38,370 bases of DNA from Minisyncoccota bacterium (GTDB taxonomy: Bacteria; Patescibacteriota; Minisyncoccia; Phycocordibacterales; UBA5272): the NCBI GenBank assembly GCA_018063165.1, contig JAGOQU010000008.1, positions 1 to 38,370 on the forward strand, in the 5' to 3' direction. The notes beneath the pieces are model-generated. The model was not told the origin of the DNA and ran no database searches. It worked only from the letters and a program-made list of their open reading frames with translations. Below, piece by piece: positions 19,639 through 38,370 of this stretch. The position numbers and the translations under genes are program-made. Each line of letters opens with the position of its first letter. The first letter of the stretch is position 1.

Positions 19639-20031
19639 ATGATAAGTCTTTTTATTGATTATACTAAATGGCATTATACACATGCTGTAGTGGGTATTTT
19701 TGTTCTTACAAGAGAGTTTATTCGTTTTTTTCTTAATCTATTTTCTTTCTCTCTTTTTGTTAGAACACTTTTTAGTCCTATTTATAGTATACGAGTGGCG
19801 CATATAGAAGAAGATGCTATTACTGACATACTTGCTGTGTTTATTGTTGATACAATTATGCGTTTGCTTGGTGCTATGATACGTCTTACTTCTATTTGTT
19901 TAGCTTTATTTTTTAGTGTACTTACTTTGGTTTTTTCTATACTACTTTTTGTTACATGGTTAACAATGCCTGTTGTTTTTCTTACTCTTATATATGGTAT
20001 TTTCTTTTTTCTTAACTCTTTACTTATATGA
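19639..20031 (+). CDS. Small membrane protein upstream of the Clp-like ATPase, 130 aa
   Basis: Unrecognised family. The N-terminus is soluble (MISLFIDYTKWHYTHA) and followed by hydrophobic stretches at about 15-45, 63-105 and 108-130, giving three or four membrane helices. A short basic/acidic segment SIRVAHIEEDAITD (about 50-63) joins them. Its stop overlaps the next start by 4 nt (ATGA), so it is translationally coupled to the membrane-anchored AAA+ protein and is probably its partner. A TAAACT box lies about 9 nt before the ATG. Confidence 0.75.
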   Translation: MISLFIDYTKWHYTHAVVGIFVLTREFIRFFLNLFSFSLFVRTLFSPIYSIRVAHIEEDAITDILAVFIVDTIMRLLGAMIRLTSICLALFFSVLTLVFSILLFVTWLTMPVVFLTLIYGIFFFLNSLLI

Positions 20032-22592: not shown

Positions 22593-22666
22593 GCGGTCGT
22601 AGCTCAGCTGGTTAGAGCACTGCCCTGTCACGGCAGGGGTCGTGGGTTCAAATCCCATCGACCGCG
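22593..22666 (+). tRNA. tRNA-Asp (GUC)
   Basis: A complete cloverleaf: acceptor GCGGTCG/CGACCGC, anticodon loop CTGTCAC with GUC, T-arm GTGGG-TTCAAAT-CCCAT, and discriminator G73. CCA is not encoded. The 3' half (22628-22666) is overlapped on the opposite strand by the end of the recombinase frame, marking this tRNA as the probable integration site. G73 is the base expected by the TGGC of the aspS T-box. Confidence 0.96.
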
Positions 22667-24265
22667 CAAAAATATAGAGGAAGGGGCGTAAGCCTCTTTT
22701 TCTATTTGTACTGAAGGTGTGACGGGTTCATACGGGCTTATATGGACATCGATAACATCTTTGTACTTTTCGATTGAAGTTACCCAATGGTGCTTGTTAA
22801 TGCTGAGTTTTTTGTCTTTCAGTGTGCAGTTCCCACCGAGTGAAATAAAGATACCTTTTTTATCTTCAAGTGTTCCTTTTTCAAACTTTTCTTTTAGTCT
22901 TGTTGCATGTGTGAACTTGTCACCAATCTCTTTCATGGTCCTACGTGCTGATTCCTCCTTATCTTCAATAAGTGCCTTTAGTCGCACTATTTTGTCTTCA
23001 CGTATATTTGTCTCCTCTGCGTATTTTTCATCGTCTATACGACCTCCTATTCGCATCTGGAAGATGTTCCTCAGTTCCGTTTCAAGTGTTGAGAGTTCTC
23101 TTAGTTGAGAGTCATAAATAGCTTGTTCTTCTCTTGCTATAACTGCGTAGTCTTCTTGTATTGCTTCGAGTGCCATTTCTTTGAATGTATCACTTATTGT
23201 TACCTTTTCGAGCTCAGTAGATATCTGGCTCTCGAGTTCTTCTAAAGTGATTACTTTTTTCTGCGTACAGTTTTCTGTGCCAGCTTTTCTTCTTGTGCAA
23301 TAGTAAAAAGTGTACTTTTTTAGCTGACCTGTAGTTTTGATTATCTTGGTCTTCTCACACGCTGTAATGGCACAGCCACATTCACCACATTTCATTAGTC
23401 CTGTATACGTAAAGAAGTGTTGCTTTGGTCTTGGTTTACCATTCCTTCCAAGCATGATTTGAACTTTATCAAAATCATCCATGGTTATCATTGGCTTATG
23501 TATACCTTGATACAACTTTCCTTTGTAATAAAATAATCCAGCATAAAAAGGGTCAGTTAAGATTCTGTATACACAACTTCTTGAGATAGGTTTGCCTCCT
23601 CGCAATTTTGTTAGACGTGTTCTTAATCCCCAATCATTATTTGCTTTGTCTCGTATTTGTGATGGTGTGTGTACACCTTCTAGCATCATCATCCAAATTT
23701 TTCTTATGATATCAAATCTATCAGGATCAACAATAATGCTATTAGATCCATGTTCTGGTAGCATTGTGTTCTTATAACCAAGAGGAGCAGAAATAGGGGC
23801 TATGCCAAGGGTTAGTTTTTTATCTAAACCGCTCTTCACACTCTTACTAAGATCTTTACTGTACTGGTTAGACATACCACTCTCGACACTCATAATAATC
23901 TGGTTGTCTTCTGGACGGTATTCACGATCCATTGTCTGTATAGAGAGAATTTCGCCATCAGCAAGCATTTGCTGTATGATTCCCCACTCAAGCGGGTTAC
24001 GAGAGAGTCTGTTTAGATGCCAGCAAACAATAGCATTTGCTGCACCTTTCTTTATTTTTTTGATCATGTCTGTGAACTCTGGTCTGTTGTAAGGAAACCT
24101 CGCAGACTTACTTTCACTGAATGTTCCCACAGTTGTTATTCCAAGCCTCTTGGTTAGCTTGTTTATTTCATCTTGTTGTCGTTCTATCGACTGAACCTGA
24201 CGGTCTTCCCCCTCTGAGGACTTCCTTAGATACTCAAAGTACTTGAGTTTGTTGTTTCTTTTCAT
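22628..24265 (-). CDS. Large serine recombinase (site-specific integrase)
   Basis: About 545 aa. The N-terminal resolvase domain (residues about 8-155) carries the nucleophile motif YLRKSS and the conserved CWHLNRLSRNPLEWG segment. The recombinase domain (about 165-290) and a zinc-ribbon (CGECGC ... YYCTRRKAGTENC, about 310-355) follow, then a coiled coil (about 375-460), the usual large serine integrase order. The frame opens at a TTG (24280), but ATG 24265 (MKRNNK) is the likely start. The last dozen residues (GRWDLNPRPLP) are the antisense reading of tRNA-Asp, so the natural C-terminus depends on the integration state. Genes of this class excise and insert DNA by a double-strand, Ser-linked mechanism. 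Confidence 0.93.
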   Translation of the reverse strand: MKRNNKLKYFEYLRKSSEGEDRQVQSIERQQDEINKLTKRLGITTVGTFSESKSARFPYNRPEFTDMIKKIKKGAANAIVCWHLNRLSRNPLEWGIIQQMLADGEILSIQTMDREYRPEDNQIIMSVESGMSNQYSKDLSKSVKSGLDKKLTLGIAPISAPLGYKNTMLPEHGSNSIIVDPDRFDIIRKIWMMMLEGVHTPSQIRDKANNDWGLRTRLTKLRGGKPISRSCVYRILTDPFYAGLFYYKGKLYQGIHKPMITMDDFDKVQIMLGRNGKPRPKQHFFTYTGLMKCGECGCAITACEKTKIIKTTGQLKKYTFYYCTRRKAGTENCTQKKVITLEELESQISTELEKVTISDTFKEMALEAIQEDYAVIAREEQAIYDSQLRELSTLETELRNIFQMRIGGRIDDEKYAEETNIREDKIVRLKALIEDKEESARRTMKEIGDKFTHATRLKEKFEKGTLEDKKGIFISLGGNCTLKDKKLSINKHHWVTSIEKYKDVIDVHISPYEPVTPSVQIEKEAYAPSSIFLRGRWDLNPRPLP

Positions 24266-24272
24266 ACTGTTG

Positions 24273-24401
24273 TTATCCAAGCCTCTTGATTAGCTTGTTA
24301 ATTTCATCTTGTTGTCGTTCTATTGACTGAACATGAAGATTTCCCTCTTCTGAAGATTTTCTCAAGTACTGGTAAAAATTGATTTTATTGTTTCTTTTCA
24401 T
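24273..24401 (-). pseudogene. Truncated second copy of the recombinase N-terminus (42 aa)
   Basis: This frame starts MKRNNKINFYQYLRKSSEEG and ends EINKLIKRLG before a TAA, 8 nt before the ATG of the full recombinase. It aligns residue by residue with the first 42 residues of the full gene (MKRNNKLKYFEYLRKSSEGE ... KRLG), with about a dozen differences. The DNA is a tandem, diverged duplication of about 137 bp. A -10-like TTTAAT lies 10 nt before its ATG, so the promoter of the recombinase may now first translate this leader peptide. It could be a recombination scar between two integrase genes or a regulatory upstream frame. Confidence 0.8.
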
Positions 24402-24723: not shown

Positions 24724-26778
24724 TTAATGTGGTTCTGTCTGCCATTCGGGGGTTTCAGCTTCTTCCTGGTTTCCTGCTTCTATATCTGAATAGGAAACAG
24801 GAATTTCATCATGACTACTTTGCTCTTCTTCCTGTTTTCCTGTGCTTATAGTAGGTAAGGAAACAGGAAGGTCATTTTCAGTGGTTCCAGTAAATAACCT
24901 AAGGTACTTCTTCTTTTTGTTTCCTGTTTTCAATTCTTTTGAAGGCACTTTCTCGATATCTTCATTATCAATGGCTATATCAATACCATCATCGATAGTG
25001 TTTTTGCCGTATTCCTCTGAAAGAATTTCATGAATCTCTTCACGGTTTTTCATTCCTTCACTTAACAGTGTTATGACAATTTCAGCAACTTCCTCAGACT
25101 TCTTTTTTCTATCATCATAGTCACCAGCATAGGCGAAGTCAGATGGACCATTGATATCTTTGATAACATTAATCTCAAATGGTTTGAGTGCCTCAGCTTG
25201 TCGTAATTTTGTTTGTCTTATAACGAGCTTATCTTCCTCGTCCTTTTTTCTTTCGATGGTAATGTGACAGTCAACGGCAGCCAATATGTCAGAAGATCCA
25301 CGCATGCTTTGTCCTGAGTTAGTTGTATTGAACGATGTTTGTTTTCTGTGATGATGCGTGAAGAGAATGGAGGCACCAGCAGTAATAACTTTTTGAAGGC
25401 TACTAAATACTCTTGCCATACCTTTTGCATCATTCTCTTCTTGTCCATGGACTCTTACAAGAGAGTCCAGTATTACAAGTTTAATGTTATGTTTTTTAAC
25501 AATGTCCACTATCATATCTCTAGCTCTTTCGTCATCAACTTTGATACCACTTTGTGATATATAATGGATGTTGTCATCCTCTTTTGCACCTAGTAAGCCG
25601 AGTCGTTTCTTGAGTAGTCTGATATGATCTTCCTCATCGATAATAAGAACTCCACCTTGTGTTGTTTTGAACTTACCAAAGACAGGTAGTCCTCGAGCAA
25701 TTCCTAAAGCAAAGTGAATAGTAACCCATGTCTTGAAGTCTCCAGGATTGCCTGAGAAGGCGGTTATTCCTTGTTTTGAGACTAAATACTCTATTAGCCA
25801 TTCTTCTTCACCAAAGTCTGTTTTTAAGATTTCTCCAATGTTCCATAGTCGAGGAACTGTATATGGTTTCTCATCTTGATTAAGTCTCTCTGAAGATCTG
25901 TTTTCTTGTTCTTTTTTCCATATAGCATCTATGGTGTCATCTATTTCTTTCTGCCTTTCTGTGAATGATTCTGGTGATTTTTGAATAATCTTGTCCCATC
26001 CATATACAGCAAGTCTTGCAACTTCAACGTCATCAGGTGTTTTAGCGTTTCTTAATGCCATTCCAGCAACTTGTGATAGTGCTCTGTGTCTTAATCCTTG
26101 CCCAGTTTCTACACCTTTCAGTAAGACATTTTGAACTGAGTTACTAATTGCCTGAGATGTCTTACTTTCTATTGATAAAAAGGGGACCATTTTATCTAAT
26201 TCTTCGAGAGTTGTTCTTTCGTCTTTGTTATAAGCGAGAATTTTTACTTCAAAAGGTTCATTAGGATTTTTGAGATGTAGCGTGTATGGAAGTCGCAGTA
26301 CTCGTGCAGGGTCCATAGCATTGGTATCACCATTAAAGAATTGAACTATTCTTTTTTGAACCTCTTTCCACTTTGCAATGTTTTCAACAGTCGGTTCGAT
26401 TGGTTCTGGATAGAGCCATATCATATGGACTCCTTTTTTGGTTCTGTTGATAATTGTTGGTAATGGTATATGATTCTCTACTCCAAGCATTCGTGCCTCT
26501 TGTATGAGTGTATCTATTTCTTCTTGTGGAAGCTTAGATTCAAAATCTATATCTACAAAGTTTGCGTTAAGTGATGACAACATTGTCTCATCTGCTTTCC
26601 CTTCAGAAGGGAATCCGTTAACAGTGTAGAAGGTTCCATAACCTCTACTATTGTGTGACATATCAAGAGTGTTGTTGCCTTGTATCACATCTTTTTTATT
26701 TACATCATGAATGTATCGTGATCTTGTGTTAAGGAAGAGCCTCATAAACTCTTCTTGTGTTAGTAATTTTTCTTGCAT
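24724..26778 (-). CDS. Primase-helicase fusion of a mobile element (RepA/KaiC-type ATPase C-terminal)
   Basis: 684 aa. The N-terminal part (about 1-200) has a primase-polymerase (AEP-like) pattern: FVDIDFE with D76 and D78, then the basic MDPARVLRLPYTLHLK segment (about 155-170). The middle (about 330-560) is a RecA-fold ATPase of the RepA/RadA-like AAA_25 type, with Walker A GNPGDFKT (343-350), IIDEED (379-384) and Walker B LVILDS (433-438), and LFTHHHRK as the family histidine segment. A winged-helix-like region (about 580-630) and a disordered acidic tail follow. It should start and unwind DNA for replication of the element. The tail is encoded by two 66-bp repeat units. Confidence 0.85.
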   Translation of the reverse strand: MQEKLLTQEEFMRLFLNTRSRYIHDVNKKDVIQGNNTLDMSHNSRGYGTFYTVNGFPSEGKADETMLSSLNANFVDIDFESKLPQEEIDTLIQEARMLGVENHIPLPTIINRTKKGVHMIWLYPEPIEPTVENIAKWKEVQKRIVQFFNGDTNAMDPARVLRLPYTLHLKNPNEPFEVKILAYNKDERTTLEELDKMVPFLSIESKTSQAISNSVQNVLLKGVETGQGLRHRALSQVAGMALRNAKTPDDVEVARLAVYGWDKIIQKSPESFTERQKEIDDTIDAIWKKEQENRSSERLNQDEKPYTVPRLWNIGEILKTDFGEEEWLIEYLVSKQGITAFSGNPGDFKTWVTIHFALGIARGLPVFGKFKTTQGGVLIIDEEDHIRLLKKRLGLLGAKEDDNIHYISQSGIKVDDERARDMIVDIVKKHNIKLVILDSLVRVHGQEENDAKGMARVFSSLQKVITAGASILFTHHHRKQTSFNTTNSGQSMRGSSDILAAVDCHITIERKKDEEDKLVIRQTKLRQAEALKPFEINVIKDINGPSDFAYAGDYDDRKKKSEEVAEIVITLLSEGMKNREEIHEILSEEYGKNTIDDGIDIAIDNEDIEKVPSKELKTGNKKKKYLRLFTGTTENDLPVSLPTISTGKQEEEQSSHDEIPVSYSDIEAGNQEEAETPEWQTEPH
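24763..24869. repeat. Two 66-bp inverted-repeat units inside the 3' end of the primase-helicase gene
   Basis: Unit 1 has TTCCTGGTTTCCT (24763-24775) and AGGAAACAGGAA (24792-24803); unit 2 has TTCCTGTTTTCCT (24829-24841) and AGGAAACAGGAA (24858-24869). The period is exactly 66 bp, 22 codons, so the protein tail is also repeated (PVSLPTIS-TGKQEEE / PVSYSDIE-AGNQEEA). Another TTTCCTGTTTTC half-site lies near 24920. The arrangement is compatible with iteron-type binding sites or a simple tandem coding duplication. Confidence 0.7.
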
Positions 26779-26780
26779 AT

Positions 26781-27047
26781 TTACTCTGTGTCTTTACCTA
26801 TATAATTTCTATAGAAATTTTGAAGAGTTATGCTTGGTGATTTCTCGAACATTGAGTCAAGAAAGTTTTGCATAGATTCTTTAATTTTTTGAGAATTTGC
26901 CTTAGAAAGATCTTTCTTTTTTAGGAGGTTGTCAGCTTCTTCAAAAAATGCATCTATTTCGCCTTCTAAATCATCTAATACTTTTAACATTGCTGTAGCA
27001 ATCATGTTATTTGTAATTTTCTGATTCGTTCGTTTTTTATTGGTCAT
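26781..27047 (-). CDS. Hypothetical helical protein, 88 aa, in the rep operon
   Basis: Not recognised. The first 20 residues are basic (NKKRTNQKITNN), the rest acidic and helical (LDDLEGEIDAFFEEADNLLKKKDL), suggesting a coiled-coil or helix-bundle protein. Its stop is 2 nt before the primase-helicase start, and it begins 4 nt after the stop of the upstream 49-aa gene, so the three are one operon. A small replication accessory or DNA-binding protein would fit, but nothing in the sequence proves it. Confidence 0.75.
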   Translation of the reverse strand: MTNKKRTNQKITNNMIATAMLKVLDDLEGEIDAFFEEADNLLKKKDLSKANSQKIKESMQNFLDSMFEKSPSITLQNFYRNYIGKDTE

Positions 27048-27051
27048 ATGT

Positions 27052-27201
27052 TTAATTTTTAATTGTTGATAGATATTCCTTTGTTAGCCTTTGTTGGATA
27101 TTAAGGAAATCTTTAATAATTTCTTCATCGATATATGTATCTTCTGGTAAATCTAATGTTAATGGTTCTAGCATGTCAGCTTTTTCTATTTTTCTTTTCA
27201 T
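27052..27201 (-). CDS. Small hypothetical protein, 49 aa, first gene of the rep operon
   Basis: The frame reads MKRKIEKADMLEPLTLDLPE, then an acidic and helical remainder ending YLSTIKN. Its TAA is 4 nt from the ATG of the 88-aa gene, and a promoter with an operator-like repeat lies about 50-95 nt upstream. The length, tight spacing and operon-leader position support a real gene. No known domain is seen. It could be a regulator or a packaging/partition peptide; this is open. Confidence 0.65.
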   Translation of the reverse strand: MKRKIEKADMLEPLTLDLPEDTYIDEEIIKDFLNIQQRLTKEYLSTIKN

Positions 27202-27254
27202 TTCTTATTTTGTATTTTTAGATTAATTGATTAACGTTTTGTAAAGTTTTTAGG

Positions 27255-27299
27255 AGTATGTCTCTCCATACTATAAATGTGGACAAGTCAGGGTGTAAA
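27255..27299 (-). promoter_or_regulatory. Promoter of the rep operon with an overlapping inverted repeat
   Basis: On the minus strand a TTTACA -35 (27294-27299) and a TATAGT -10 (27270-27275) are 18 nt apart. An 18-bp inverted repeat AGTATG-6-CATACT (27255-27272) overlaps the -10 and the start of the transcript, the place expected for a repressor operator. Confidence 0.5.
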
Positions 27300-27341
27300 A
27301 ATAAAAGCAATAAAAATAAAGCTCTTTTGACAAAAAACAAT

Positions 27342-27371
27342 AAAAAAACAGCCTGATTTTTCAGTCTGTTT
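27342..27371 (-). terminator. Terminator of the 347-aa gene
   Basis: AAACAG-C-CTGA (27346-27356) pairs with TCAG-T-CTGTTT (27361-27371) with one mismatch. Read leftward it ends in a T-run, 4 nt after the stop of the gene at 27375. Confidence 0.75.
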
Positions 27372-27374
27372 GTT

Positions 27375-28418
27375 TTAGTTATCTTCGAGTTCTTCTATTT
27401 TAAATGTTCTATCTTCATAATAACCTTCTTCGCTATCTTCTTCATTTATTTGTGTGTTGTAATTTAATGATGATGTTGCTGAGAATAGTCTTTTGTCTCT
27501 CAGATCAGGTTCTGGTTGGATCTTGAAGATAGGTTCATAATACTTATCCTTGCTACTCTTGTCACTGATATCTACGAAAGGGTCTTTTTCTGTATCAAAC
27601 ATCACACACAAGGCCTCTGAAAGATGTCTTTTTGCTTGGTATATAGAATCTAAGCTCAATGTTTTCCCATTTTTGCCTTTTATTGTTCCTATTAAAGTAT
27701 TGGGTGTTGCTCTTCCAAGTTTTTTATCAGTAAAAATTGACAGTGCCACTAAAAGGTCCCACTCTCTGTTTTTCTTATGGTTTTTTAGGTTAGAACTAAA
27801 ACCAAGTTCTATATAATCACCTTTTTTGATAATTTTTCCTCCGTAACATATTTCTGCACCATCAGAATCACTGGTTATTTTAATTTCAACTTTGTTCCAT
27901 TCAAAGTTTTTGGGAATATTATCAAACTTCGAGTATTTCTTTTTCATTAAAGACCTATGTCCTGTTTTTTTAGAAAAGCTAATAATAAAAGGTTGTAGCT
28001 CTTTTAGTATTTTAAGTATTTCAGAAAGTATTTCTCTATCCTTTGCAAAAAACTTAAAAAGTAAATCAGATTTTTCTGTAGCAATTTGTGATTCGTAAAC
28101 CGAGTCAGGATATTTTTTAAAAAAGGACTCTAAGTTGATTTCCTTTATTTGTTCACGTTTAGGAAATAGCTGAGCATTATCTTTTGCTTTTTTCCCGTAA
28201 GCAAGAATATAATTTACACTTGTTAGAAAAAATTCATCATCAACATATATGCCATTATGGAGATCTTTTTGAAAATCTTCATTTTCTAAGATTTCATATG
28301 CAAGATTATTCACGCCAACAAGAAATACCTTTGCTTCATCGATATTTTGGACCTTATTTTTTAAAAGGTTTTTTGCAATAATATGAAGTTCAGTTTTCTT
28401 ATTTTTTACAGTTTCCAT
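27375..28418 (-). CDS. Hypothetical protein, 347 aa
   Basis: Not recognised. It is soluble and Lys/Glu rich. The N-terminal part (1-130) is helical. The middle (about 165-210) is beta-like, with EWNKVEIKITSDSDGAEICYGGKIIKKGDYIELGF. A later segment (RATPNTLIGTIKGKNGKTLSLDSIYQAKRHLSEAL, about 240-275) looks like a helix-turn-helix or compact helical domain. A TATAAT (28426-28431) with upstream TGT lies 7 nt before the ATG, a leaderless promoter on the minus strand. It is divergent from the HEPN-like gene, with promoters back to back in 54 nt, a layout often seen when one protein controls the other. Confidence 0.65.
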   Translation of the reverse strand: METVKNKKTELHIIAKNLLKNKVQNIDEAKVFLVGVNNLAYEILENEDFQKDLHNGIYVDDEFFLTSVNYILAYGKKAKDNAQLFPKREQIKEINLESFFKKYPDSVYESQIATEKSDLLFKFFAKDREILSEILKILKELQPFIISFSKKTGHRSLMKKKYSKFDNIPKNFEWNKVEIKITSDSDGAEICYGGKIIKKGDYIELGFSSNLKNHKKNREWDLLVALSIFTDKKLGRATPNTLIGTIKGKNGKTLSLDSIYQAKRHLSEALCVMFDTEKDPFVDISDKSSKDKYYEPIFKIQPEPDLRDKRLFSATSSLNYNTQINEEDSEEGYYEDRTFKIEELEDN

Positions 28419-28425
28419 TTGTTTT

Positions 28426-28463
28426 ATTATAACAAGAATATTATTTTTTAATACTGGTATACT
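28426..28463. promoter_or_regulatory. Divergent leaderless promoters
   Basis: Minus strand: TGT-TATAAT (28426-28431), 7 nt before the ATG of the 347-aa gene. Plus strand: TGG-TATACT (28458-28463), 9 nt before the ATG of the HEPN-like gene. Confidence 0.6.
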
Positions 28464-28472
28464 TGTTAGATA

Positions 28473-29234
28473 ATGAATAACAAAGAATTTAAAGGAAATC
28501 TTGATAGTTTGCCAGCTTCTTTGTTTATAGATAAAAATAAAAAATCTGATGATTATGAAAACTTCTTTTTGGTTTTAGGTGTTGTTTTCAATGATCTGAA
28601 AGGATTAATGATGTTTGATATGCTTATAAAAGAGTCGTATAGAAAACCTGAAGAAGGAGAGGTTTCCTCACATACGGGTGAATATGGAGGTGCCAGAATT
28701 CAAATAAACAAATTCTTAATTGGTGTTATTAATGAATTCTTGGAATTTTTGAAAAGTAATGAAGGCACGATGAAAACTTTAGAATTTCAGTTGTTGTTAA
28801 AAAACTTGTCTCCAGAACATAGAAAAAGATGGACTGATTTGGTTGATGTTGCTATGAAAAAAAATACCTCAGATTCAGAAATATTAAAAACGTTGGTTAA
28901 CATTAGAAATAACGTTGCGTTTCATTACTACCAATCTGGGAAAGTTCTTAGAAAAGGTTTCATTGATGTTTTTAATAATCAGAAAGATGATAAGCCTCAA
29001 TACAAAAAGCCATACTTTTCAGTTGGAGAAACAATGGAGTCAACTAGATTTTATTATTCTGATGCTTCCGTAGAAGCGTATACCCGTTCTGTTCTTACAA
29101 AGGAACAGGTCGAAAGTATTAGCAATATTGTTGACGATATGAACAGTACAATAACAGCGTTAATGACTGCATACATTACATCACTTAAAAATAAAATTAA
29201 GGTAAATAATAAACCGAAAAAGAAAAAGAGATAA
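28473..29234 (+). CDS. HEPN-like domain protein, 253 aa
   Basis: Mostly alpha-helical, soluble. Residues about 145-165 contain LVNIRNNVAFHYYQSG with R-x5-H, the pattern of the HEPN active site, which in toxins and defence nucleases cuts RNA. The segment IRNxVAFHY is close to that seen in several abortive-infection and unknown HEPN families. The C-terminus is Lys-rich (NKPKKKKR). It shares a divergent promoter region with the 347-aa gene and is convergent with the HD hydrolase, the two stop codons touching (29234/29235). The ribonuclease role is inferred from the motif and the neighbourhood. Confidence 0.65.
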   Translation: MNNKEFKGNLDSLPASLFIDKNKKSDDYENFFLVLGVVFNDLKGLMMFDMLIKESYRKPEEGEVSSHTGEYGGARIQINKFLIGVINEFLEFLKSNEGTMKTLEFQLLLKNLSPEHRKRWTDLVDVAMKKNTSDSEILKTLVNIRNNVAFHYYQSGKVLRKGFIDVFNNQKDDKPQYKKPYFSVGETMESTRFYYSDASVEAYTRSVLTKEQVESISNIVDDMNSTITALMTAYITSLKNKIKVNNKPKKKKR

Positions 29235-29849
29235 CTACTTTTTTATTTCTAAAGTTGTCTTTAGGTGGTGGTGATATTTTTTTCCATATCCATCAATCCA
29301 GTCTGTGAGGCGGAGTAAGAGAGGAACTTTTACTTCCACCATAAACCTACGATTTTCTTCAGATAGTCCATGTGCTTGTGTTAGGTTATCTGCTAAGTCG
29401 CACAGCTTGATGTACCACGCTTCTTCGTCTCTAGCTTCAATAAGCTTAGCAACCATAAGTGTCCAGCGTTCAGTCTTGTTCTCGATACTCATATCGTGCG
29501 TACAGAGGCGTATAAGCTCGATAGTTCGTCCTGTGAAGCCAAGAGCTACTAATTCTTTAAAGCTAACACCTCCGTCTTCTACGATGTCATGGAGAAGTGC
29601 AGCGAGAAATAGTTCTAAATCAGGATCATCCCAGTGGTGAAGTCTTTTTACTGCATCGTAAACACGGATAGAGTGCATATAGTTGTGTTCACCTGGTAAT
29701 CCTTTTCGTTCACCTTTAATTTTTTCTTGCACAAGAGCTTTAGCAATCGGTTCCATCTTTTCGAAGTATTCCCAGTACTCAGTGAGTGTCATTCCTTTTA
29801 CGCTTTTTGTGTTGTTTAATAATTCTTGAAATTCTTTTGTGTATGTCAT
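29235..29849 (-). CDS. HD-domain hydrolase of RelA/SpoT type
   Basis: Metal-dependent HD phosphohydrolase. Motifs in order: HNYMHSIRV (His of helix 2), LLHDIVEDGG (the HD pair plus ED) and IKLCDLADNL (final Asp), the order of the (p)ppGpp hydrolase domain. There is no synthetase or TGS/ACT domain, so it is a small alarmone hydrolase-like or nucleotide hydrolase protein. The frame extends to a TTG at 29903; I take ATG 29849 as start because the extension has no ribosome site and lies between the terminator and the gene. Its upstream region is a structured RNA with promoter and terminator. Substrate unknown. Confidence 0.85.
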   Translation of the reverse strand: MTYTKEFQELLNNTKSVKGMTLTEYWEYFEKMEPIAKALVQEKIKGERKGLPGEHNYMHSIRVYDAVKRLHHWDDPDLELFLAALLHDIVEDGGVSFKELVALGFTGRTIELIRLCTHDMSIENKTERWTLMVAKLIEARDEEAWYIKLCDLADNLTQAHGLSEENRRFMVEVKVPLLLRLTDWIDGYGKKYHHHLKTTLEIKK

Positions 29850-29904
29850 GTTTTCGTTTGTTATCTGATAGTCTCTCAGGGGCTTTTGCTGTGGACTAGA
29901 CAAA

Positions 29905-30211: not shown

Positions 30212-33200
30212 ATGAATAATCTATTACAAAATTGCCGAGTTAGAGAGTCTGCATTAAGTGACAATACACAAGATGATGTATTGGAAATATTAAATCTTCT
30301 TAAAGATGATATTGATGCAGAAAGGTTTTTTACAGAAAGTTACTTTACTGATGGTATAAACACTCTCCTAAAAACGGCTTTTGGTAGATTTGAAGGAAAG
30401 GAGGATAAGGGTGTTGTAAAACTGACACAGAATATGGGTGGTGGTAAAACACACAGTATGATTACGCTTGGTCTTTTGGCTAAGCATCCAGAATATAGAA
30501 AAAAATTCTTAGGAGATAGCCACTATAAAGATAAGGTTAGAGTGATAGGTTTTTCTGGAAGACAGTCTGATACCAATCTTGGAATTTGGGGAGAACTTGC
30601 TAAACAGCTTGGTAAAGAAGAACAGTTCAAGGAGTATTTTAATCCACAGTTCAAAGCTCCAGGAAATGAAGCATGGATTAATCTCTTAAAAGGAGAACCA
30701 ACTCTTATTCTTCTTGATGAGCTACCACCATATTTTGTTAGTGCAAAATCAAGAACAATAGGTAATTCTGACTTAAGTAAAGAAACTGCTATTGCTTTGG
30801 CTAATCTTTTTAATGCCATCAAGGAAAAGGAACTTTCCAACGTACTGGTTGTTATCTCTGACTTGTCTGGAAGCTATAGAGAGGGCAGTAACATGATTCA
30901 AGAGGTTCTAAAGGACTTAAAAAGTGAACTCAGTAGAGTTTCTTTGAATTTAACACCTGTTGATTCTCAAAATGATTTGGTAGAAATTTTGAAGACAAAA
31001 TTGTTCGAAAAGTTGCCTGCAAAAAACGTAATAGAAGATGTTGCTAAGAATTATCAAAACATTTTGAAGGAGGCAAATCAAAATGGTCTCACAAAGAGTG
31101 ATCCTGCCGTTCTTTATACTCAAATAGTAAAAAGCTATCCATTCCATCCTTCTTTTATTAATCTATATAATCGTTTTAAAGAGAACGAAGGGTTCCAGCA
31201 GACAAGAGGTGTTATACGTCTTGTTAGAATGATGCTTCAGGACCTACAGTCTTCAAAATTTGAAGGACAGTTAATAGCTCCTCAGGATATTAATTTAACT
31301 AACCCTAGAATAAGAACAACAATAGAGCAATTGAACGATACTTTGGTTGGAGCTATTAAAAAAGATATTTCTGATCAGGGGTCTTCTGCTGCAGAACTTG
31401 CTGACGAAAAACTAAACACAAAGAATGTTTCAAATATCGCAAAGTTGATATTAGTGTCATCTCTCTCAAGTGCGTCAGGTGGAATTAAGGGGTTACATTT
31501 AAATGAGATTGTTGATTACGTAATAACCCCTGAAACAAAAGTAACAGATATTAAACCAGCGATTGAGCAACTTGATCTTGGTTCATGGTATCTAGCTCGT
31601 GATAAAGACGGTAAATTATATTTCCAGAATCAACAAAATATTGTAGCTAGACTAAATGAGCTTGTGAATAGTTATGATGATGAAAGTGCTAAAAAAGAAA
31701 TTAAGGCATATCTTTCTGAAGAATTTAAGCCACAAGTAAAAGATCTCTATCAAAAGATGGTAGTCTTTCCTGCTGTGGATGAGTTAGATATTTCATCAAA
31801 GGAGATTACTCTTATTGTTACAGAGCCTAGTGCTTTGCAGGCTGGTCTTTCTAAAGATTTGAAGGAATACTGGAATGATTCTTCTTTCAAGAATAGATTC
31901 CTCTTTCTTTCTGGAGAAAGGCAAACGTGGGAGAACCTTTTGAAAATGTTTAAGGAGTATAAGGGTATCAAGTCAATCATTGAACAAATGCAATCAGATC
32001 GTATTCCTGATACTGATGCTCAGTTTACAAAAGCAAAAGATAAGAAGGATAAAATTAGATTGAGTATAAATTCTGCAATCAGAGAAACTTTCATTAAACT
32101 ATTCTTTCCAAGAAGTAACTCAGATACTGGGGTTGAGGCTTTAGCAGAAGCGGAGATCACATTTCAGTTTTCAGAGAACAGTTTTAGTGCCGAAGAGCAG
32201 ATGAGAAATGTCTTAAAAGACGAAAGGAAATTTACAGCGGACATAAGCACTCCTGCATTTAGGACAATGGTGGAAGATAAATTGTTTGGTGAAAATCAAA
32301 AAGAAATTCAATGGGATAATTTGAAAGAGAACGCAGCTAGATATTGTCGTTGGACATGGCATCATCCAAGAGCTTTGGATGATTTAAGAACGAAAGCATT
32401 AGCAGAGGGACTTTGGAGAGATAATGGTGGATATATACAAAAGGGTCCATTTCAAAAAGAACCAACCAATCTTGATGTGAAGTTTTTGGATTACGATAAA
32501 GTAAGCAAGGGGACATCTGTTAAGGTTTCTTTGAAGTATGGAGATCAGGTTTATCAAGACACTAACGAAAATGTTACAGATAAATCAAGACTTGTTGAGA
32601 ATCCTGACTATTTGACACTCACTGGATACAAAACATATTTTCTTTGTGTTGACTCTAAAGGTAAACACGAAACTGGTCCCGTAAAGTGTTATACAACTCC
32701 ACTTGTTATAACAAATAGAATTGTTGAAAATACTATAGAGCTTGAGGTTAACTGTGATGCTCATATTAAGTACACAACAGATGGTAGTGATCCTAGAGAA
32801 GACGGTGGTACGTATGATGGTCCTACAAAAATCCCTGAGGGAGCAAAATATGTGAGGGCGGTTGCAGAGATAGGTGGTGATTTTGGACCAGTGGAAGATA
32901 TTGTCATTCCAGAAACAAACAAGCCACGAGAGATAGATTCAAGTAAGCCTGTCACATATAAAGAGCCAACGAAGACATCGGATAACAATGAAACATTTTC
33001 TTTAGTTGAAGAACTCGAACGAGCAAGTGCAAAAGTAACATTGCTTGCTATTGATTTTAATGTGAATGGTAGTAGTGACTGGATAACAATAAACTTTTCT
33101 GAAACTATGACATTAGACATGGTTAAACTTAAAAAACTTCTTGATCAGGTAAGAGAAGTTGTTGCGGTCGAGGGTCAAACTGTTGAAATTGCGGTGAACC

Positions 33201-33304
33201 TAAGAAGTATGTTCTTTTTAGACGGTGCAAGCTTCAAGCAATTCTTGGCTTCTCGTAAGATTTCATTGAACGATATTAATCAAAATTATGTTGACCAAAA
33301 CTAA
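30212..33304 (+). CDS. DUF499-family AAA+ ATPase of a modification/defence cassette
   Basis: 1030 aa. The DUF499 signature is clear: LTQNMGGGKTHSMITLGLLAKHPEYR with Walker A GGGKTHS (76-82) and the Walker B LILLDELPPYF (165-175). The ATPase core covers about 30-450. The middle is helical, and residues about 850-900 (IKYTTDGSDPREDGGTY ... AVAEIGG) resemble the beta-sandwich chitobiase-C-terminal-like repeat, a protein- or sugar-binding module. DUF499 proteins occur with DUF1156 methylases in predicted defence islands. It is the first gene of the four-gene unit and overlaps the next one by 17 nt. Confidence 0.9.
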   Translation: MNNLLQNCRVRESALSDNTQDDVLEILNLLKDDIDAERFFTESYFTDGINTLLKTAFGRFEGKEDKGVVKLTQNMGGGKTHSMITLGLLAKHPEYRKKFLGDSHYKDKVRVIGFSGRQSDTNLGIWGELAKQLGKEEQFKEYFNPQFKAPGNEAWINLLKGEPTLILLDELPPYFVSAKSRTIGNSDLSKETAIALANLFNAIKEKELSNVLVVISDLSGSYREGSNMIQEVLKDLKSELSRVSLNLTPVDSQNDLVEILKTKLFEKLPAKNVIEDVAKNYQNILKEANQNGLTKSDPAVLYTQIVKSYPFHPSFINLYNRFKENEGFQQTRGVIRLVRMMLQDLQSSKFEGQLIAPQDINLTNPRIRTTIEQLNDTLVGAIKKDISDQGSSAAELADEKLNTKNVSNIAKLILVSSLSSASGGIKGLHLNEIVDYVITPETKVTDIKPAIEQLDLGSWYLARDKDGKLYFQNQQNIVARLNELVNSYDDESAKKEIKAYLSEEFKPQVKDLYQKMVVFPAVDELDISSKEITLIVTEPSALQAGLSKDLKEYWNDSSFKNRFLFLSGERQTWENLLKMFKEYKGIKSIIEQMQSDRIPDTDAQFTKAKDKKDKIRLSINSAIRETFIKLFFPRSNSDTGVEALAEAEITFQFSENSFSAEEQMRNVLKDERKFTADISTPAFRTMVEDKLFGENQKEIQWDNLKENAARYCRWTWHHPRALDDLRTKALAEGLWRDNGGYIQKGPFQKEPTNLDVKFLDYDKVSKGTSVKVSLKYGDQVYQDTNENVTDKSRLVENPDYLTLTGYKTYFLCVDSKGKHETGPVKCYTTPLVITNRIVENTIELEVNCDAHIKYTTDGSDPREDGGTYDGPTKIPEGAKYVRAVAEIGGDFGPVEDIVIPETNKPREIDSSKPVTYKEPTKTSDNNETFSLVEELERASAKVTLLAIDFNVNGSSDWITINFSETMTLDMVKLKKLLDQVREVVAVEGQTVEIAVNLRSMFFLDGASFKQFLASRKISLNDINQNYVDQN

Positions 33305-33854
33305 ACGTTCTACTTCAATAGGATATGGTTTTATGCCTGAGGAGTCACAGCTCCACTTTTTGGTTGAGATTTCTCGAAGCAAAGATAAAGATATTAAAAT
33401 TTTTGAGAGAGCGAGATGGGAAGACGGTGAAGTAAAGATTGATTATCGTCACGATACTTTAAAGGTGTTAGTTGCTCCACATAAATGGGAAAAAATTAAA
33501 GATACCTTGCATAAAGAATTCAATCTAAGGCTTGGTTCCAAAAAATATAAAAGTGGTTCATGGGTAGCTGGGAAAAATCCAGTACACAGACTCTTGGGTA
33601 AAGAGTTAGTTTTACTTGCTTGGGTTGTTGCAGATTGCGACCCTAGTAACATCGACTCTGCCTTAAAGAATTGGCTTGGTTTACGACCAGAAGAAAGATG
33701 GTGGTTATATACAATGACTAATGCAACAAGTGGAGGGCTCGAGGATAATTTTGGCTGGAGAAAAGCCATCAGATATGCTCTTACAGAGAACCCTGTAACA
33801 GAAAACAAGAAGAGAGAGTCACTCTTTTTCAACCTTAACGAAGATGAAATCTAA
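33288..33854 (+). CDS. DUF3780-family protein
   Basis: 188 aa. The recognisable part spans about 60-185: APHKWEKI, EFNLRL, SWVAGKNPVHRLLGKELVLLAWVVADCD, WLGLRPEERWWLYTMTNATSG and RYALTENPV, the core I associate with DUF3780, a family found with DUF1156 and DUF499 genes. No catalytic motif is obvious; the conserved Trp/Arg/Glu block could be a binding surface. The start lies inside the 3' end of the DUF499 gene and the stop is 2 nt before the methylase, so it is coupled to both. The exact function is unknown. Confidence 0.8.
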   Translation: MLTKTKRSTSIGYGFMPEESQLHFLVEISRSKDKDIKIFERARWEDGEVKIDYRHDTLKVLVAPHKWEKIKDTLHKEFNLRLGSKKYKSGSWVAGKNPVHRLLGKELVLLAWVVADCDPSNIDSALKNWLGLRPEERWWLYTMTNATSGGLEDNFGWRKAIRYALTENPVTENKKRESLFFNLNEDEI

Positions 33855-33856
33855 GC

Positions 33857-36745
33857 ATGAATAAATCATTTATTGAAACACAGTTTCCTGTATCTAAAAT
33901 ATCTAAGGAAAGTTATAAAGAAAGAAAGGCTGTTCAAGGGCAAACACTCACAGGAATTGGTAAGTGGTGGGGGCGTAAGCCTCTTATTTTGGTTAGAGCA
34001 ACTATACTGGGGTTACTGCTTCCTGCAACAGAAAATCCTCAAAAGGATCGTGAAATTTTCCTTAAGATTTTATCTATGGATGATGATGGACTGTGGCAAA
34101 GAAAAGAAAAAAGTGTTCCAGCAAAGGATTTGTATGATATTGCAAATACTAGTGAGAGAAATAAGTATTTCATTTTACAAGAAGAAGTTCCTAAGTGGAA
34201 TGCTTCAATATCTAACATAGAAAAAGAAGCAATTCAAAAGTCCTTATTTGAGAAAATGAGTTATGACCAAAAAATAACATATTGCATTCGTCCTGAAGAA
34301 CTTGTTAATTTGAATGCTTCTACTTGGGTAGATATTAATAGTTATCTTGGAACAACTGCAACTAATTTACAAGAATTAATGGAACAACTTAGTATTCTTA
34401 GATATGGAAATCTTGTTACTGTTGGTGATTGTTTTTCTGGAGGAGGAAGTGTTCCTTTTGAGGCCGCTCGTATTGGTTTAAAGGCTTATGGATCAGACCT
34501 TAATCCAGTAGCAACTCTGCTTTCATGGGCTGCTTTAAATATAAATGGTTCGACAGATGACGAGGTAGAACAGCTTCGTATTTTTCAAAAAAAAGTTTAC
34601 GATGTTGTTGACTCACAAATAACAACTTGGGGAGTTGAACATAATGAACAAGGTGATCGTGCTAATAGCTACCTTTACTGTAATGAAACAAAATGTCCTG
34701 CGTGTGATTGGGTCGTTCCAATGGCTCCTTCTTGGGTTATAGGTGAAGGACCTACGAGGACTATTGCAGTACTGAAGCCAAATAATGAAAAAAAATGTTT
34801 TGATATAGAGGTTCATCAAGATGTTTCTAGTAGTGAACTTAAAGAAGCTGAAAATTCAGGCACAATCTCTCGAGAAGGTCTATCTTGTCCATATTGTAGA
34901 ACTATTTCCCCAATTTCCTCTGTTCGTCATGATCGTAAAGATTCTGATGGAGTAAAAATTAGTGGTTTACGTCAGTGGGGGAAAACAGATTTTTATCCTA
35001 ATGTGAATGATATTTTTCAAGAGCGATTATATTGTATACGTTATGAAAAAAAGTTAAATGGTAAAACGTCACGATATTATACTGCTCCAACAAATCAAGA
35101 TCTTTTAAGAGAGAAAAAAGTAATTAGTTTGATAGCTGATAATCTTACTGAATGGCAAAAAAATGGTTACATACCTTCAGATAAAATTGATTCTGGTTAT
35201 AATACTGACCAACCAATACGTGAACGTGGCTGGCAATACTGGCATCAACTTTTTAATCCACGACAACTTTTAATCGTTGGATTGCTATTGCAAAAAAGTA
35301 TGGAATTAGCAAAGACAAAAAAAGAAATAGTAGTAGGGATTCTTGGCGTTAATCATAACGCTAATTGGAACTCAAAATTGTCAAGGTGGGATAGCGGAAA
35401 GAGTCCTTCGGTAAAAGACACTTTTAGTAATCAAGCCCTGAACACTTTATATAATTACAGTAGTCGTGGTTTAACATTAGGTAGTTCTGTTTGGTTTTTT
35501 TCTATAAATAACTCAACTATGCGTTTTCCTTCAGACATATTGATTTCTGATGCTAGAAAAGTAACCAAGAATAGTACTTTTTGGATAACAGATCCTCCAT
35601 ACGCCGATGCTGTAAATTACCACGAACTCTCAGAATTCTTTCTATCTTGGGATAAAAAAAATTTAAAGAAAGCTTTTCCAGATTGGAATATTGAGAGCCA
35701 TCGTAATGATGCTGTTAAAGGCAATGATTCGGCATTTACTCATTCCATGATAGATGTTTATCGAAATTTGGCAGCACATATGCCTGATGATGGTATGCAA
35801 GTGGTAATGTTTACACATCAAGATCCTGCTGTTTGGGCGGAGTTATCCCTCATCTTGTGGTCTGCTGGATTACAGGTTACTTCTGCTTGGAATATAGCAA
35901 CAGAAACAGAGTCTGGTGGACTCAAGTCAGGTAACTATGTAAAAGGAACAGTGCTATTGGTATTACGTAAAAATGCATCAGATAAGAGTGGATGGCTCGA
36001 TGATATTTATCCTCAAATAAAAGAAGAGGTAAAAAATCAGATAGACTCTATGCAGAATCTTGATGACAAGGATGATCCTGATTTTACTGATAATGACTTC
36101 TTGCTTGCTGCGTATGCGGCTTCACTGAAAGTTCTCACGAAGTATAAAAAGATTGGAGACATTGATATTGAATATGAGATTTCTCGTAAAAGGGATAAGA
36201 ATACCAAGAATCCTATTCAAGATATTATCGAGTCAGCTATTAAGGTTGCTTATGATTATCTTATTCCAAAAGGAATCAGTAAAAATATTTGGAAGGACCT
36301 TACAAAAGAAGAAAAGTTTTATATTAAAGGGTTGGATTTTGAGAGAGGTGGTCTGCTCACTAGTGCTTCATATCAAGAACTTGCAAAAGGGTTAGGTGTT
36401 TCAGATTATACAAGTTTACTTGCATCCACTAAAGCTAATCAAGTGCGAGTAAAGACTCCTATGGACTTCACTAATAAGCAAGTAGGAAGTTCGGATGCGT
36501 TTTCTTCTGGACTGGTTCGTCAGATTTTGATGGCTATATATCTCTCTGTTAAATCAGAGGATGCGAATGCTGGTAAAAATTGGTTTAGAAATGAGCTTCC
36601 AGATTATTGGAATAATCGTAGTAGGATTATTGAAATACTTCAGCTTATAGATGGGTTGCAAACAATCGCTGACTCGGAACACTGGCAGGCATCTTCTCAA
36701 TATGCTGGTTATTTAAAAAGCTTAGTTGAAAATGATGGACTATAA
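33857..36745 (+). CDS. DUF1156-family adenine-specific DNA methylase with Zn-ribbon
   Basis: 962 aa. The N-terminal DUF1156 segment (FIETQFPVSKISKES ... GIGKWWGRKPLILVRATILG, about 5-52) is followed by SAM motif I, VGDCFSGGGSVPFEAARIG (189-207), and the catalytic DPPY (579-582) in TFWITDPPYADAVNYHELSEFF. Cys pairs at 275/280/283 and 344/347 form the expected zinc-ribbon. The C-terminal 250 residues are helical. DPPY is typical of N6-adenine or N4-cytosine enzymes; this family (COG1743) is annotated as adenine-specific. It would mark host DNA, sparing it from the associated helicase-nuclease. It is the third gene of the cassette, 5 nt before the helicase. Confidence 0.93.
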   Translation: MNKSFIETQFPVSKISKESYKERKAVQGQTLTGIGKWWGRKPLILVRATILGLLLPATENPQKDREIFLKILSMDDDGLWQRKEKSVPAKDLYDIANTSERNKYFILQEEVPKWNASISNIEKEAIQKSLFEKMSYDQKITYCIRPEELVNLNASTWVDINSYLGTTATNLQELMEQLSILRYGNLVTVGDCFSGGGSVPFEAARIGLKAYGSDLNPVATLLSWAALNINGSTDDEVEQLRIFQKKVYDVVDSQITTWGVEHNEQGDRANSYLYCNETKCPACDWVVPMAPSWVIGEGPTRTIAVLKPNNEKKCFDIEVHQDVSSSELKEAENSGTISREGLSCPYCRTISPISSVRHDRKDSDGVKISGLRQWGKTDFYPNVNDIFQERLYCIRYEKKLNGKTSRYYTAPTNQDLLREKKVISLIADNLTEWQKNGYIPSDKIDSGYNTDQPIRERGWQYWHQLFNPRQLLIVGLLLQKSMELAKTKKEIVVGILGVNHNANWNSKLSRWDSGKSPSVKDTFSNQALNTLYNYSSRGLTLGSSVWFFSINNSTMRFPSDILISDARKVTKNSTFWITDPPYADAVNYHELSEFFLSWDKKNLKKAFPDWNIESHRNDAVKGNDSAFTHSMIDVYRNLAAHMPDDGMQVVMFTHQDPAVWAELSLILWSAGLQVTSAWNIATETESGGLKSGNYVKGTVLLVLRKNASDKSGWLDDIYPQIKEEVKNQIDSMQNLDDKDDPDFTDNDFLLAAYAASLKVLTKYKKIGDIDIEYEISRKRDKNTKNPIQDIIESAIKVAYDYLIPKGISKNIWKDLTKEEKFYIKGLDFERGGLLTSASYQELAKGLGVSDYTSLLASTKANQVRVKTPMDFTNKQVGSSDAFSSGLVRQILMAIYLSVKSEDANAGKNWFRNELPDYWNNRSRIIEILQLIDGLQTIADSEHWQASSQYAGYLKSLVENDGL

Positions 36746-36750
36746 TAATT

Positions 36751-38370
36751 ATGATAAATAGATTTTCTTCACGTCGTGAACAACTCAATGCTTCACTCCT
36801 TAACGCTAAGCTTCAAGGGTCTAGTCAATACGATAGAATTGCTGGGTACTTTTCTACTTCTATCTTTGATATTTCTGGAGAAGCTATTGACCTCGTTAAT
36901 GGAAAGGTAAGAATTATTTGTAATGCACATTTGCAGATTGACGATGTTCGTAACATAAAAGCTTTTGAAGCTGCACTCAGAAAAGATTGGTGTGAAAGTC
37001 AGCCAGAAAAAAGCGATATTCAATTCCCTGACAGATTAGAAAAACTATACACATTGATTCGTTCTGGAAAATTAGAAATAAGAGTATTACCAGATGAGGT
37101 TTTTGGTTTTATACACGGTAAGGCAGGGGTCATTACATATCCTGATGGCAATAAGACATCATTCTTGGGAAGTATGAATGAAAGTCAATCTGGATGGGAG
37201 AGAAATTATGAGTTGGTATGGGAAGATAGTTCTTCTGAAGCAGTTGCTTGGGTGCAGGAAGAATTTGATGTTTTATGGAATAGTGATAAGGCGAGACCTT
37301 TAATTGATTTTATTGTTGATGATATTAAAAGAATTGCTGAGAGAAAAATTGTTTATCAGATAGAGCAAATATCAAAGCCAGAAGAAACAATAGTGGAGTC
37401 GCCTGTGTATCGTCAGCAGTTAGGGTTGTGGGAACATCAGAAGCAGTTTGTTGATTTGGTATACAGAACACAACAAGCAGGCTCTAAAGCAAGATATGTT
37501 CTTGCTGATATGGTTGGTCTTGGTAAGACGATACAGTTAGGACTTTCTGCACAAGTTCTTTCGCTACATAGTGAAAAGCCTGTTCTTATTATATGTCCAA
37601 AAACATTGGTCTGGCAGTGGCAGGATGAATTGAATGTATTGATGGGGTTACCTTCTGCTGTTTGGGATGGTAAAGCTTGGGTAGATGAAACAGGAAACAT
37701 TTTTGGTGGTAAAAGTAGCTTTGACATAAAAAGATGCCCAAGAAAGATAGGTATTATTTCACAAGGAATCATTACAGCAAATACTGATATTGTTAAACAT
37801 TTATTAGATATAGAATTCAATACAGTTATAGTTGACGAGTGTCACAGATCTAGAAGAAAGAATCTTGGAAAGGATAAAGAAAATGAAAGACCTGAGCCAA
37901 ATAACTTGTATTCATACTTGCTTAAACTAGCAAAAAAGACAGACCATCTTTTAATGGGGACTGCTACTCCAATACAACTCTATCCAATCGAAGCATGGGA
38001 CCTTTTGAATATTCTTGCTCAAGGAGATAATAAGATACTTGGCTCTACTGCTAGTAACTGGCAAAGCGACCCACAGAAGGCACTCAAAATGCTCTCTGGT
38101 AAGGAAACTCTCACTAGAATTGAAGAGATATTCGATTGGATGAGAAATCCTCTTCCTGATGCTTTTGAAGACCCTAAAAACATTGGAGTATTGAGAGACT
38201 CAGCTTCGCTTGAAGTTTCTGATTACATTCTTAATAAGTCATATAATGATTTGTTGCCAATACAAAAAAATATTGTAGAGAGACTTGGTGGAACATATAT
38301 CGGAGAGCATAATCCATTTATTAGAAAAATTGTCAGAAGAACAAGAAAGTATCTTGAGACAACTATTAAT
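36751..38370 (+). CDS. PLD-nuclease / SNF2-type helicase fusion (partial, runs off the edge)
   Basis: 540 codons are visible without a stop, so the gene continues past the window. The N-terminal 190 residues are a phospholipase-D nuclease domain: YFSTSIFDISGEAI, then HGK (122-124), LGSMNES (139-145) and RNYEL. A superfamily-2 SNF2 helicase follows: ADMVGLGKT (252-260), ICPKTLVWQW (281-290), VDECHRSRRK (361-370, DECH box) and MGTATP (402-407). Such PLD-helicases occur in DNA modification/defence systems and probably translocate on and cut unmodified DNA. The ATG at 36751 is 5 nt after the methylase stop. Confidence 0.92.
   Translation, partial: MINRFSSRREQLNASLLNAKLQGSSQYDRIAGYFSTSIFDISGEAIDLVNGKVRIICNAHLQIDDVRNIKAFEAALRKDWCESQPEKSDIQFPDRLEKLYTLIRSGKLEIRVLPDEVFGFIHGKAGVITYPDGNKTSFLGSMNESQSGWERNYELVWEDSSSEAVAWVQEEFDVLWNSDKARPLIDFIVDDIKRIAERKIVYQIEQISKPEETIVESPVYRQQLGLWEHQKQFVDLVYRTQQAGSKARYVLADMVGLGKTIQLGLSAQVLSLHSEKPVLIICPKTLVWQWQDELNVLMGLPSAVWDGKAWVDETGNIFGGKSSFDIKRCPRKIGIISQGIITANTDIVKHLLDIEFNTVIVDECHRSRRKNLGKDKENERPEPNNLYSYLLKLAKKTDHLLMGTATPIQLYPIEAWDLLNILAQGDNKILGSTASNWQSDPQKALKMLSGKETLTRIEEIFDWMRNPLPDAFEDPKNIGVLRDSASLEVSDYILNKSYNDLLPIQKNIVERLGGTYIGEHNPFIRKIVRRTRKYLETTIN

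Follow-up and report, generated by a model that had tools for sequence, protein, structure and literature searches.

The closest described systems

Rakesh and Krishnan (2026; PMC12839542) named the Type-2 BREX-Related (BR) system, which they found in 1,120 taxa, 98% of them with DUF3780. In their description, the ATPase carries a C-terminal RRM-like domain, preceded in about half of the taxa by two FnIII-like beta-sandwiches; an N-terminal HKD nuclease replaces TUDOR in the helicase; and DUF3780 may occur fused to readers of modified bases (RAMA or ASCH/PUA). Antiphage activity is reported there for the related Type-1/Hma helicase; for Type-2 BR systems, the literature searched gave no experiment on phage resistance or methylation. 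The main text of Rakesh and Krishnan mentions neither CPR nor Patescibacteria. As to auxiliary nucleases, HEC-05 is BrxU according to PMC11411939, and the same source, citing Payne et al., describes GmrSD-like genes embedded in Hma clusters.

The locus described here was found in a window of 38,370 nt, the whole stretch of DNA analyzed, which is an entire contig (C3) of a genome of 842,756 bases in 15 contigs (G000), from a bacterium that probably depends on a host. Four plus-strand genes, encoding DUF499, DUF3780, a DUF1156 amino-methyltransferase, and a PLD-nuclease/SNF2-helicase, are packed into positions 30212-38370. The initial annotation had named the same four families, as PADLOC, NCBIfam, and Pfam matches bear out, and had linked them to surveys of defense islands; they now form a named and surveyed system with dedicated models.

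A cassette continued on a second contig

The first gene (30212..33304, +) encodes a 1030-aa protein that is a DUF499 AAA+ ATPase by its PADLOC, Pfam, and NCBIfam matches and BrxC-like by its structure model. It overlaps by 17 nt the gene for a DUF3780 protein of 188 aa (33288..33854, +), a candidate reader or adaptor characterized by family models, alignment, and a structure model. After a gap of 2 nt follows a DUF1156-type DNA amino-methyltransferase of 962 aa (33857..36745, +), recognized from family models and conserved motifs, and after another 5 nt a PLD (HKD) nuclease-SNF2 helicase (36751..38370, +), of which the window holds the N-terminal 540 of 911 aa. The tight linkage claimed in the initial annotation is thus confirmed.

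For each of the four proteins, the dedicated models (NCBIfam NF042961-NF042964 and PADLOC PDLC02189-02193) were the top match. PADLOC E-values were 9e-188 for DUF499, 3e-43 for DUF3780, 2e-275 for DUF1156_MTase, and 5e-151 for PLD_Helicase; those of the NCBIfam 'antiphage' equivalogs were 6e-227, 3e-44, 0, and 7e-221, respectively. Only the methyltransferase (1341 versus 1000) and the joined helicase scored above the equivalog cut-off, whereas DUF499 (756 versus 1200) and DUF3780 (151 versus 200) stayed under it. Both of the latter pass the Pfam gathering scores, DUF3780 with 149 bits against a cut-off of 27 (PF12635). Judged by these scores, the DUF499 and DUF3780 of the window are divergent family members.

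The helicase frame is open at the window end, where the contig stops within the gene. The end of C3 and the start of contig C2 are identical over 127 nt, and the frame continues across this overlap to C2:128-1243. The joined helicase of 911 aa scores 1200.5 bits against the equivalog cut-off of 1100 and spans model positions 2-895 of 895. The exact overlap has the look of an assembly-graph edge, so a branch at the join is possible.

Only 7 nt past the helicase end begins a fifth gene (C2:1250-3394; L007), whose 714-aa product was assigned by Pfam and PADLOC. It combines GmrSD_N (DUF262; 3.4e-29), with a DGQQR motif at residue 83, an HNH-like motif, and a C-terminal SLFN_AlbA_2 domain. The HNH-like motif, DHIFP at 442 (DHIFP...NRAILTQLGN), was seen by eye, and Pfam GmrSD_C gave no match; the top PADLOC match was HEC-05 (1.2e-49). 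All five reading frames are intact. Reading past 38370, as the initial annotation had advised, therefore completed the helicase and added a gene. The proposed four-gene unit, about 9.3 kb in size, stands as to its four genes and falls short as to the operon, which has at least five. Right of it lie this auxiliary nuclease and then other genes, with no different known system.

Full-length homologues of the fifth protein occur on Sinorhizobium pSymA (61%) and on haloarchaeal plasmids (34-36%), so the GmrSD-AlbA_2 fusion is not unique and moves independently of the cassette. A GmrSD-type gene lies inside the cassette or less than 100 nt away in L078, L079, L081, L103, and L153; such genes are near only a minority of cassettes, and we rejected GmrSD as an obligatory fifth component. 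It is distinctly unlikely that the fifth protein (GmrSD-HNH plus Schlafen AlbA_2) serves this lineage as a partner dedicated to the Type-2 BR complex. Were it so, one chain would unite two kinds of auxiliary nuclease that are separate at the locus in relatives (GmrSD; AlbA_2 with HATPase_c_4), and it would cut the DNA of modified phage genomes and then, as a last resort, RNA.

Conserved motifs and predicted structures

The Walker, SAM/DPPY, HKD, and SNF2 motifs of the cassette are intact and nearly invariant. DUF499 has Walker A GGGKT at residue 76 and Walker B LILLDEL at 165, with GGGKT and DE 98-100% conserved in 65 homologues. Its predicted structure (pLDDT 87.5) found its best solved matches in BrxC (9zll_B, Z 17.0, rmsd 4.0 over 396 residues; 9zdx_C, Z 16.0), followed by ORC at Z 12.4. 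Pfam places an Fn3_assoc/CHB_HEX_C_1 match at residues 841-885, and the model shows a beta-rich region at about 753-898 and then an alpha/beta domain at about 914-1014. The modeled C-terminus thus appears to consist of a beta-sandwich region and, after it, an RRM-like alpha/beta domain, the latter being the domain that marks the Type-2 BR ATPase.

In the methyltransferase, PF06634 (DUF1156) spans 9-71, the SAM motif FSGGGS lies at 193, and the catalytic TDPPY at 578. Among 87 sequences, F.GGGS is conserved to at least 98%, except for its variable second position, and TDPPY to 96-100%. Both motifs of the methylase on which the initial annotation had relied are intact. In the helicase, Pfam finds PLDc_2 at 50-176 and then SNF2-rel_dom; HGK and the helicase motifs are conserved among homologues.

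DUF3780 retains 21 invariant residues in 73 homologues, for example, GKE 104-106, EERWW 135-139, and GWR 156-158. Its structure is predicted with confidence (pLDDT 89.8), but a comparison with the PDB returned nothing at a Foldseek E of ≤0.001 and a top VIA-align Z of 3.4, and the sequence profile reached only E-values of 0.49 or more. Fold homology was therefore dropped for this protein; small, well predicted, highly conserved, and with no known fold match, it is a tractable target. Apart from generic domains, no solved close homologues of the cassette components were found.

Probable insertion at a tRNA-Asp gene

A large serine recombinase gene (22628..24280, -), with Resolvase, Recombinase, and Zn_ribbon_recom domains and a match to the phrog_95 integrase (1.5e-65), probably encodes an integrase. 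Its last ~40 nt overlap the 3' part of a tRNA-Asp(GTC) gene (22593..22667, +), which, from comparison with relatives, we infer to be the integration site and the left boundary of the element. In genus relatives, a rhodanese gene lies near tRNA-Asp, at ~490 nt from it in G003; in G013, the distance from the left-flank AAA gene to the rhodanese gene is ~630 nt. In the genome studied here, the rhodanese gene (C2:12235) lies ~28 kb from tRNA-Asp, and genes from ~22.7 kb to C2:~11.8 kb have no homologues in the comparison loci of genus relatives. Because the flanking host genes sit close together in these relatives, the insertion amounts to ~27.3 kb. These comparisons support the placement of the cassette on an element that would have integrated at tRNA-Asp, and the claim of an integrated element in a small-genome bacterium is upheld.

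The element flanks are on two contigs, with chromosomal genes of the same lineage on both sides, and a binning artefact is therefore unlikely for the cassette. The right end of the element lies somewhere between C2:3394 and C2:~11.8 kb. Near it, no repeat of any 12-mer from the tRNA-Asp end was found; the longest shared word, the 10-nt TAGCTCAGCT, was rejected as an attachment repeat, as it lies within the tRNA and falls short of the boundary by ~8 kb. The cassette has a GC content of 35.9% versus 32-33% in the flanks.

Left of the cassette (24724-29903), the element carries a gene for a RepA/primase-helicase-like AAA_25 protein (24724..26778, -; phrog_3123, 6e-36; phrog_906 DNA polymerase/primase, 2e-22), an HD-domain phosphohydrolase-like gene, and three genes with no Pfam match above the cut-off; most genes in this interval have no family. 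A left-flank two-gene unit with a ClpB-like AAA_2 domain (19639-22457) adjoins the tRNA-Asp site and is patchy in the genus (58% in G013, 41% in G009). In L064 (G006), ~3.7 kb of different sequence separates tRNA-Asp from the rhodanese gene, which points to tRNA-Asp as a hot spot of integration.

Distribution and relatives of the cassette

Few members of the phylum carry the cassette: DUF3780 exceeded the cut-off in 2 of the 380 phylum genomes sampled and, among 99 relatives, in 1; the genome studied here is included in both counts. A scan of a genome collection yielded 473 encoding stretches, from which 80 loci were kept. Across 86 loci examined, all 74 with the four genes have the order DUF499-DUF3780-MTase-PLD, and they span many bacterial phyla and archaea. 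Scattering of the genes in relatives, which the initial annotation had named as evidence against a functional unit, was thus not seen. Moreover, the identity matrices of the four proteins correlate (r 0.80-0.94 in 60 loci; permuted maximum, 0.32), and therefore the four genes travel as a unit.

The gap between the methyltransferase and helicase genes exceeds 300 nt in 26 of the 74 loci, and the genes lying there include those for AlbA_2 with HATPase_c_4, OLD-TOPRIM, GmrSD, and Fic proteins. Nine loci (L071, L098, L102, L130, L131, L138, L141, L143, and L149) share an accessory family of ~440-560 aa at this position, which had AlbA_2 plus HATPase_c_4 in the three members scanned and is similar to the auxiliary effectors of Schlafen type in the BREX-related survey. 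A rearranged locus in Candidatus Epulonipiscium viviparus (L151) has DUF3780 between two methyltransferase-type genes and DUF499 last.

Two other small-genome bacteria carry the four genes of the window in the same order and with near-identical spacing. In bacterium DTUPAT2 (G463, L078), of the same phylum, identities are 68/75/66/80% for DUF499/DUF3780/MTase/helicase; in Candidatus Saccharibacteria UBA6223 (L128), they are 56/59/60/62%. The GmrSD gene of DTUPAT2 lies upstream of the ATPase, whereas that of the genome studied here is downstream of the helicase. In the methyltransferase tree, the three sequences form one clade with 100% support, grouped with mostly Bacillota. A single arrival in small-genome bacteria and later exchange among them would fit this tree, although three sequences are too few for proof.

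When the window is compared with DTUPAT2, helicase and catalytic blocks have diverged least, with several helicase and methyltransferase blocks 90-98% identical, and identity is lowest in the mid-methyltransferase and the DUF499 C-terminus (40-58% in most 50-aa blocks). This is the pattern expected if specificity sits there, in the target-recognition region of the methyltransferase and the tail of the ATPase; relaxed constraint could also produce it. The two copies are a natural pair for finding the parts that set specificity. A search of viral contigs with the methyltransferase gave no relative, and phage records yielded Sulfolobus virus STSV1 alone (22% over half of the protein); the cassette therefore does not look phage-borne.

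Proposed mechanism and alternatives

Altogether, we consider it very probable that the locus is a complete Type-2 BR defense operon, acquired horizontally on the ~27-kb element at tRNA-Asp and working in the manner of restriction-modification. The biochemical steps that follow are deduced from the parts, their intact motifs, the conserved order, the co-inheritance, and the insertion, all read from sequence. The DUF1156 methyltransferase would methylate an exocyclic amino group, most likely N6 of adenine, in a specific motif, thereby marking self DNA. The BrxC-like DUF499 would scan incoming DNA by means of its C-terminal beta-sandwich/RRM-like region, together with DUF3780 as a reader or adaptor, and sense whether the mark is missing (or present). 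The SNF2 translocase with its HKD (phospholipase-D-fold) nuclease would then be loaded and cut DNA that lacks the mark. The GmrSD-AlbA_2 protein would probably add a second layer against phages whose DNA is otherwise modified. The marking of self and attack on unmarked DNA suggested in the initial annotation are consistent with this scheme.

The operon could instead serve its element, acting like the addiction or exclusion modules of plasmids to stabilize the insertion at tRNA-Asp and bar competitors, with phage defense incidental. The cassette does sit on an element that has a recombinase and that genus relatives lack, beside an HD-domain gene and a replication-type gene; it also has homologues on plasmids, with 20 conjugative records among the 127 that matched. 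However, most collected homologues are on genome contigs across phyla, and defense cargo is common on elements, so the two readings are compatible; as the main role of the operon, we judge service to the element unlikely. Detection of modified phage bases by DUF3780 or the ATPase, in a modification-dependent (Type IV-like) system whose methyltransferase is regulatory or epigenetic, would accord with the described fusions of DUF3780 to RAMA or ASCH/PUA readers (PMC12839542) and with the GmrSD-type gene, from a family of modification-dependent nucleases, that ends the operon and recurs at or in the five cassettes listed above. Yet strict retention of an intact methyltransferase suggests that self-marking is essential, and GmrSD-type genes accompany a minority of cassettes only, making such a system quite improbable. 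That the cassette is decayed or silent, recently acquired and unexpressed in this organism, is very improbable: promoter-like sites are no commoner than in shuffled sequence, but none of the five frames is broken, their motifs are full-length, and two other small-genome lineages have kept the same cassette, with 60-66% methyltransferase identity.

On the restriction-like defense reading, a genome below 1 Mb can hold a ~9.3-kb system and an auxiliary nuclease, delivered by a site-specific element, in a phylum where the system is rare.

Comparison with known defense systems

The assignment to defense in the initial annotation agrees with the 'antiphage' NCBIfam and PADLOC models and can be referred to a named system, Type-2 BR. 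The locus had also been called neither standard BREX nor DISARM, which is correct on both counts, although kinship with BREX is real: the two share the ATPase fold, and BrxC is the closest structure to the DUF499 model. Canonical BREX was rejected, with PglX and BrxH as weak partial matches only and no PADLOC match to PglZ, BrxB, or BrxL among the cassette, the fifth gene, and the scanned neighbors. DISARM was likewise set aside, the likeness being a partial helicase-domain similarity to DrmD/DrmA with no DrmB or DrmC match. The HsdM_N domain of type I restriction-modification is absent from the genome.

Hma (Type-1 BR) shares with the locus the logic of helicase, methyltransferase, and DUF499-type ATPase, as well as embedded accessory genes. 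It lacks DUF3780, however, which is present here, and the HmaA/B/C PADLOC scores of the window are far weaker than those of the Type-2 models; Hma was therefore rejected. The fifth protein resembles the HEC-05/BrxU-like GmrSD nucleases in its GmrSD_N and DGQQR, and perhaps in the HNH-like DHIFP seen by eye, and differs from them by its C-terminal Schlafen AlbA_2.

Identification of the cassette as a complete Type-2 BR operon, a known system, is well supported, as all the defining features that can be assessed from sequence are found: a BrxC-like DUF499 ATPase, a stand-alone DUF3780, a DUF1156 amino-methyltransferase with DPPY, and an HKD-SNF2 helicase. The locus and Type-2 BR systems have in common the four core genes, the predicted beta-sandwich and RRM-like C-terminus of the ATPase, and nearby auxiliary nucleases. 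They differ in nothing essential, and the locus adds modest extras to the known system: a small-genome host, the tRNA-Asp element, and a GmrSD-AlbA_2 fusion as auxiliary nuclease at the 3' end.
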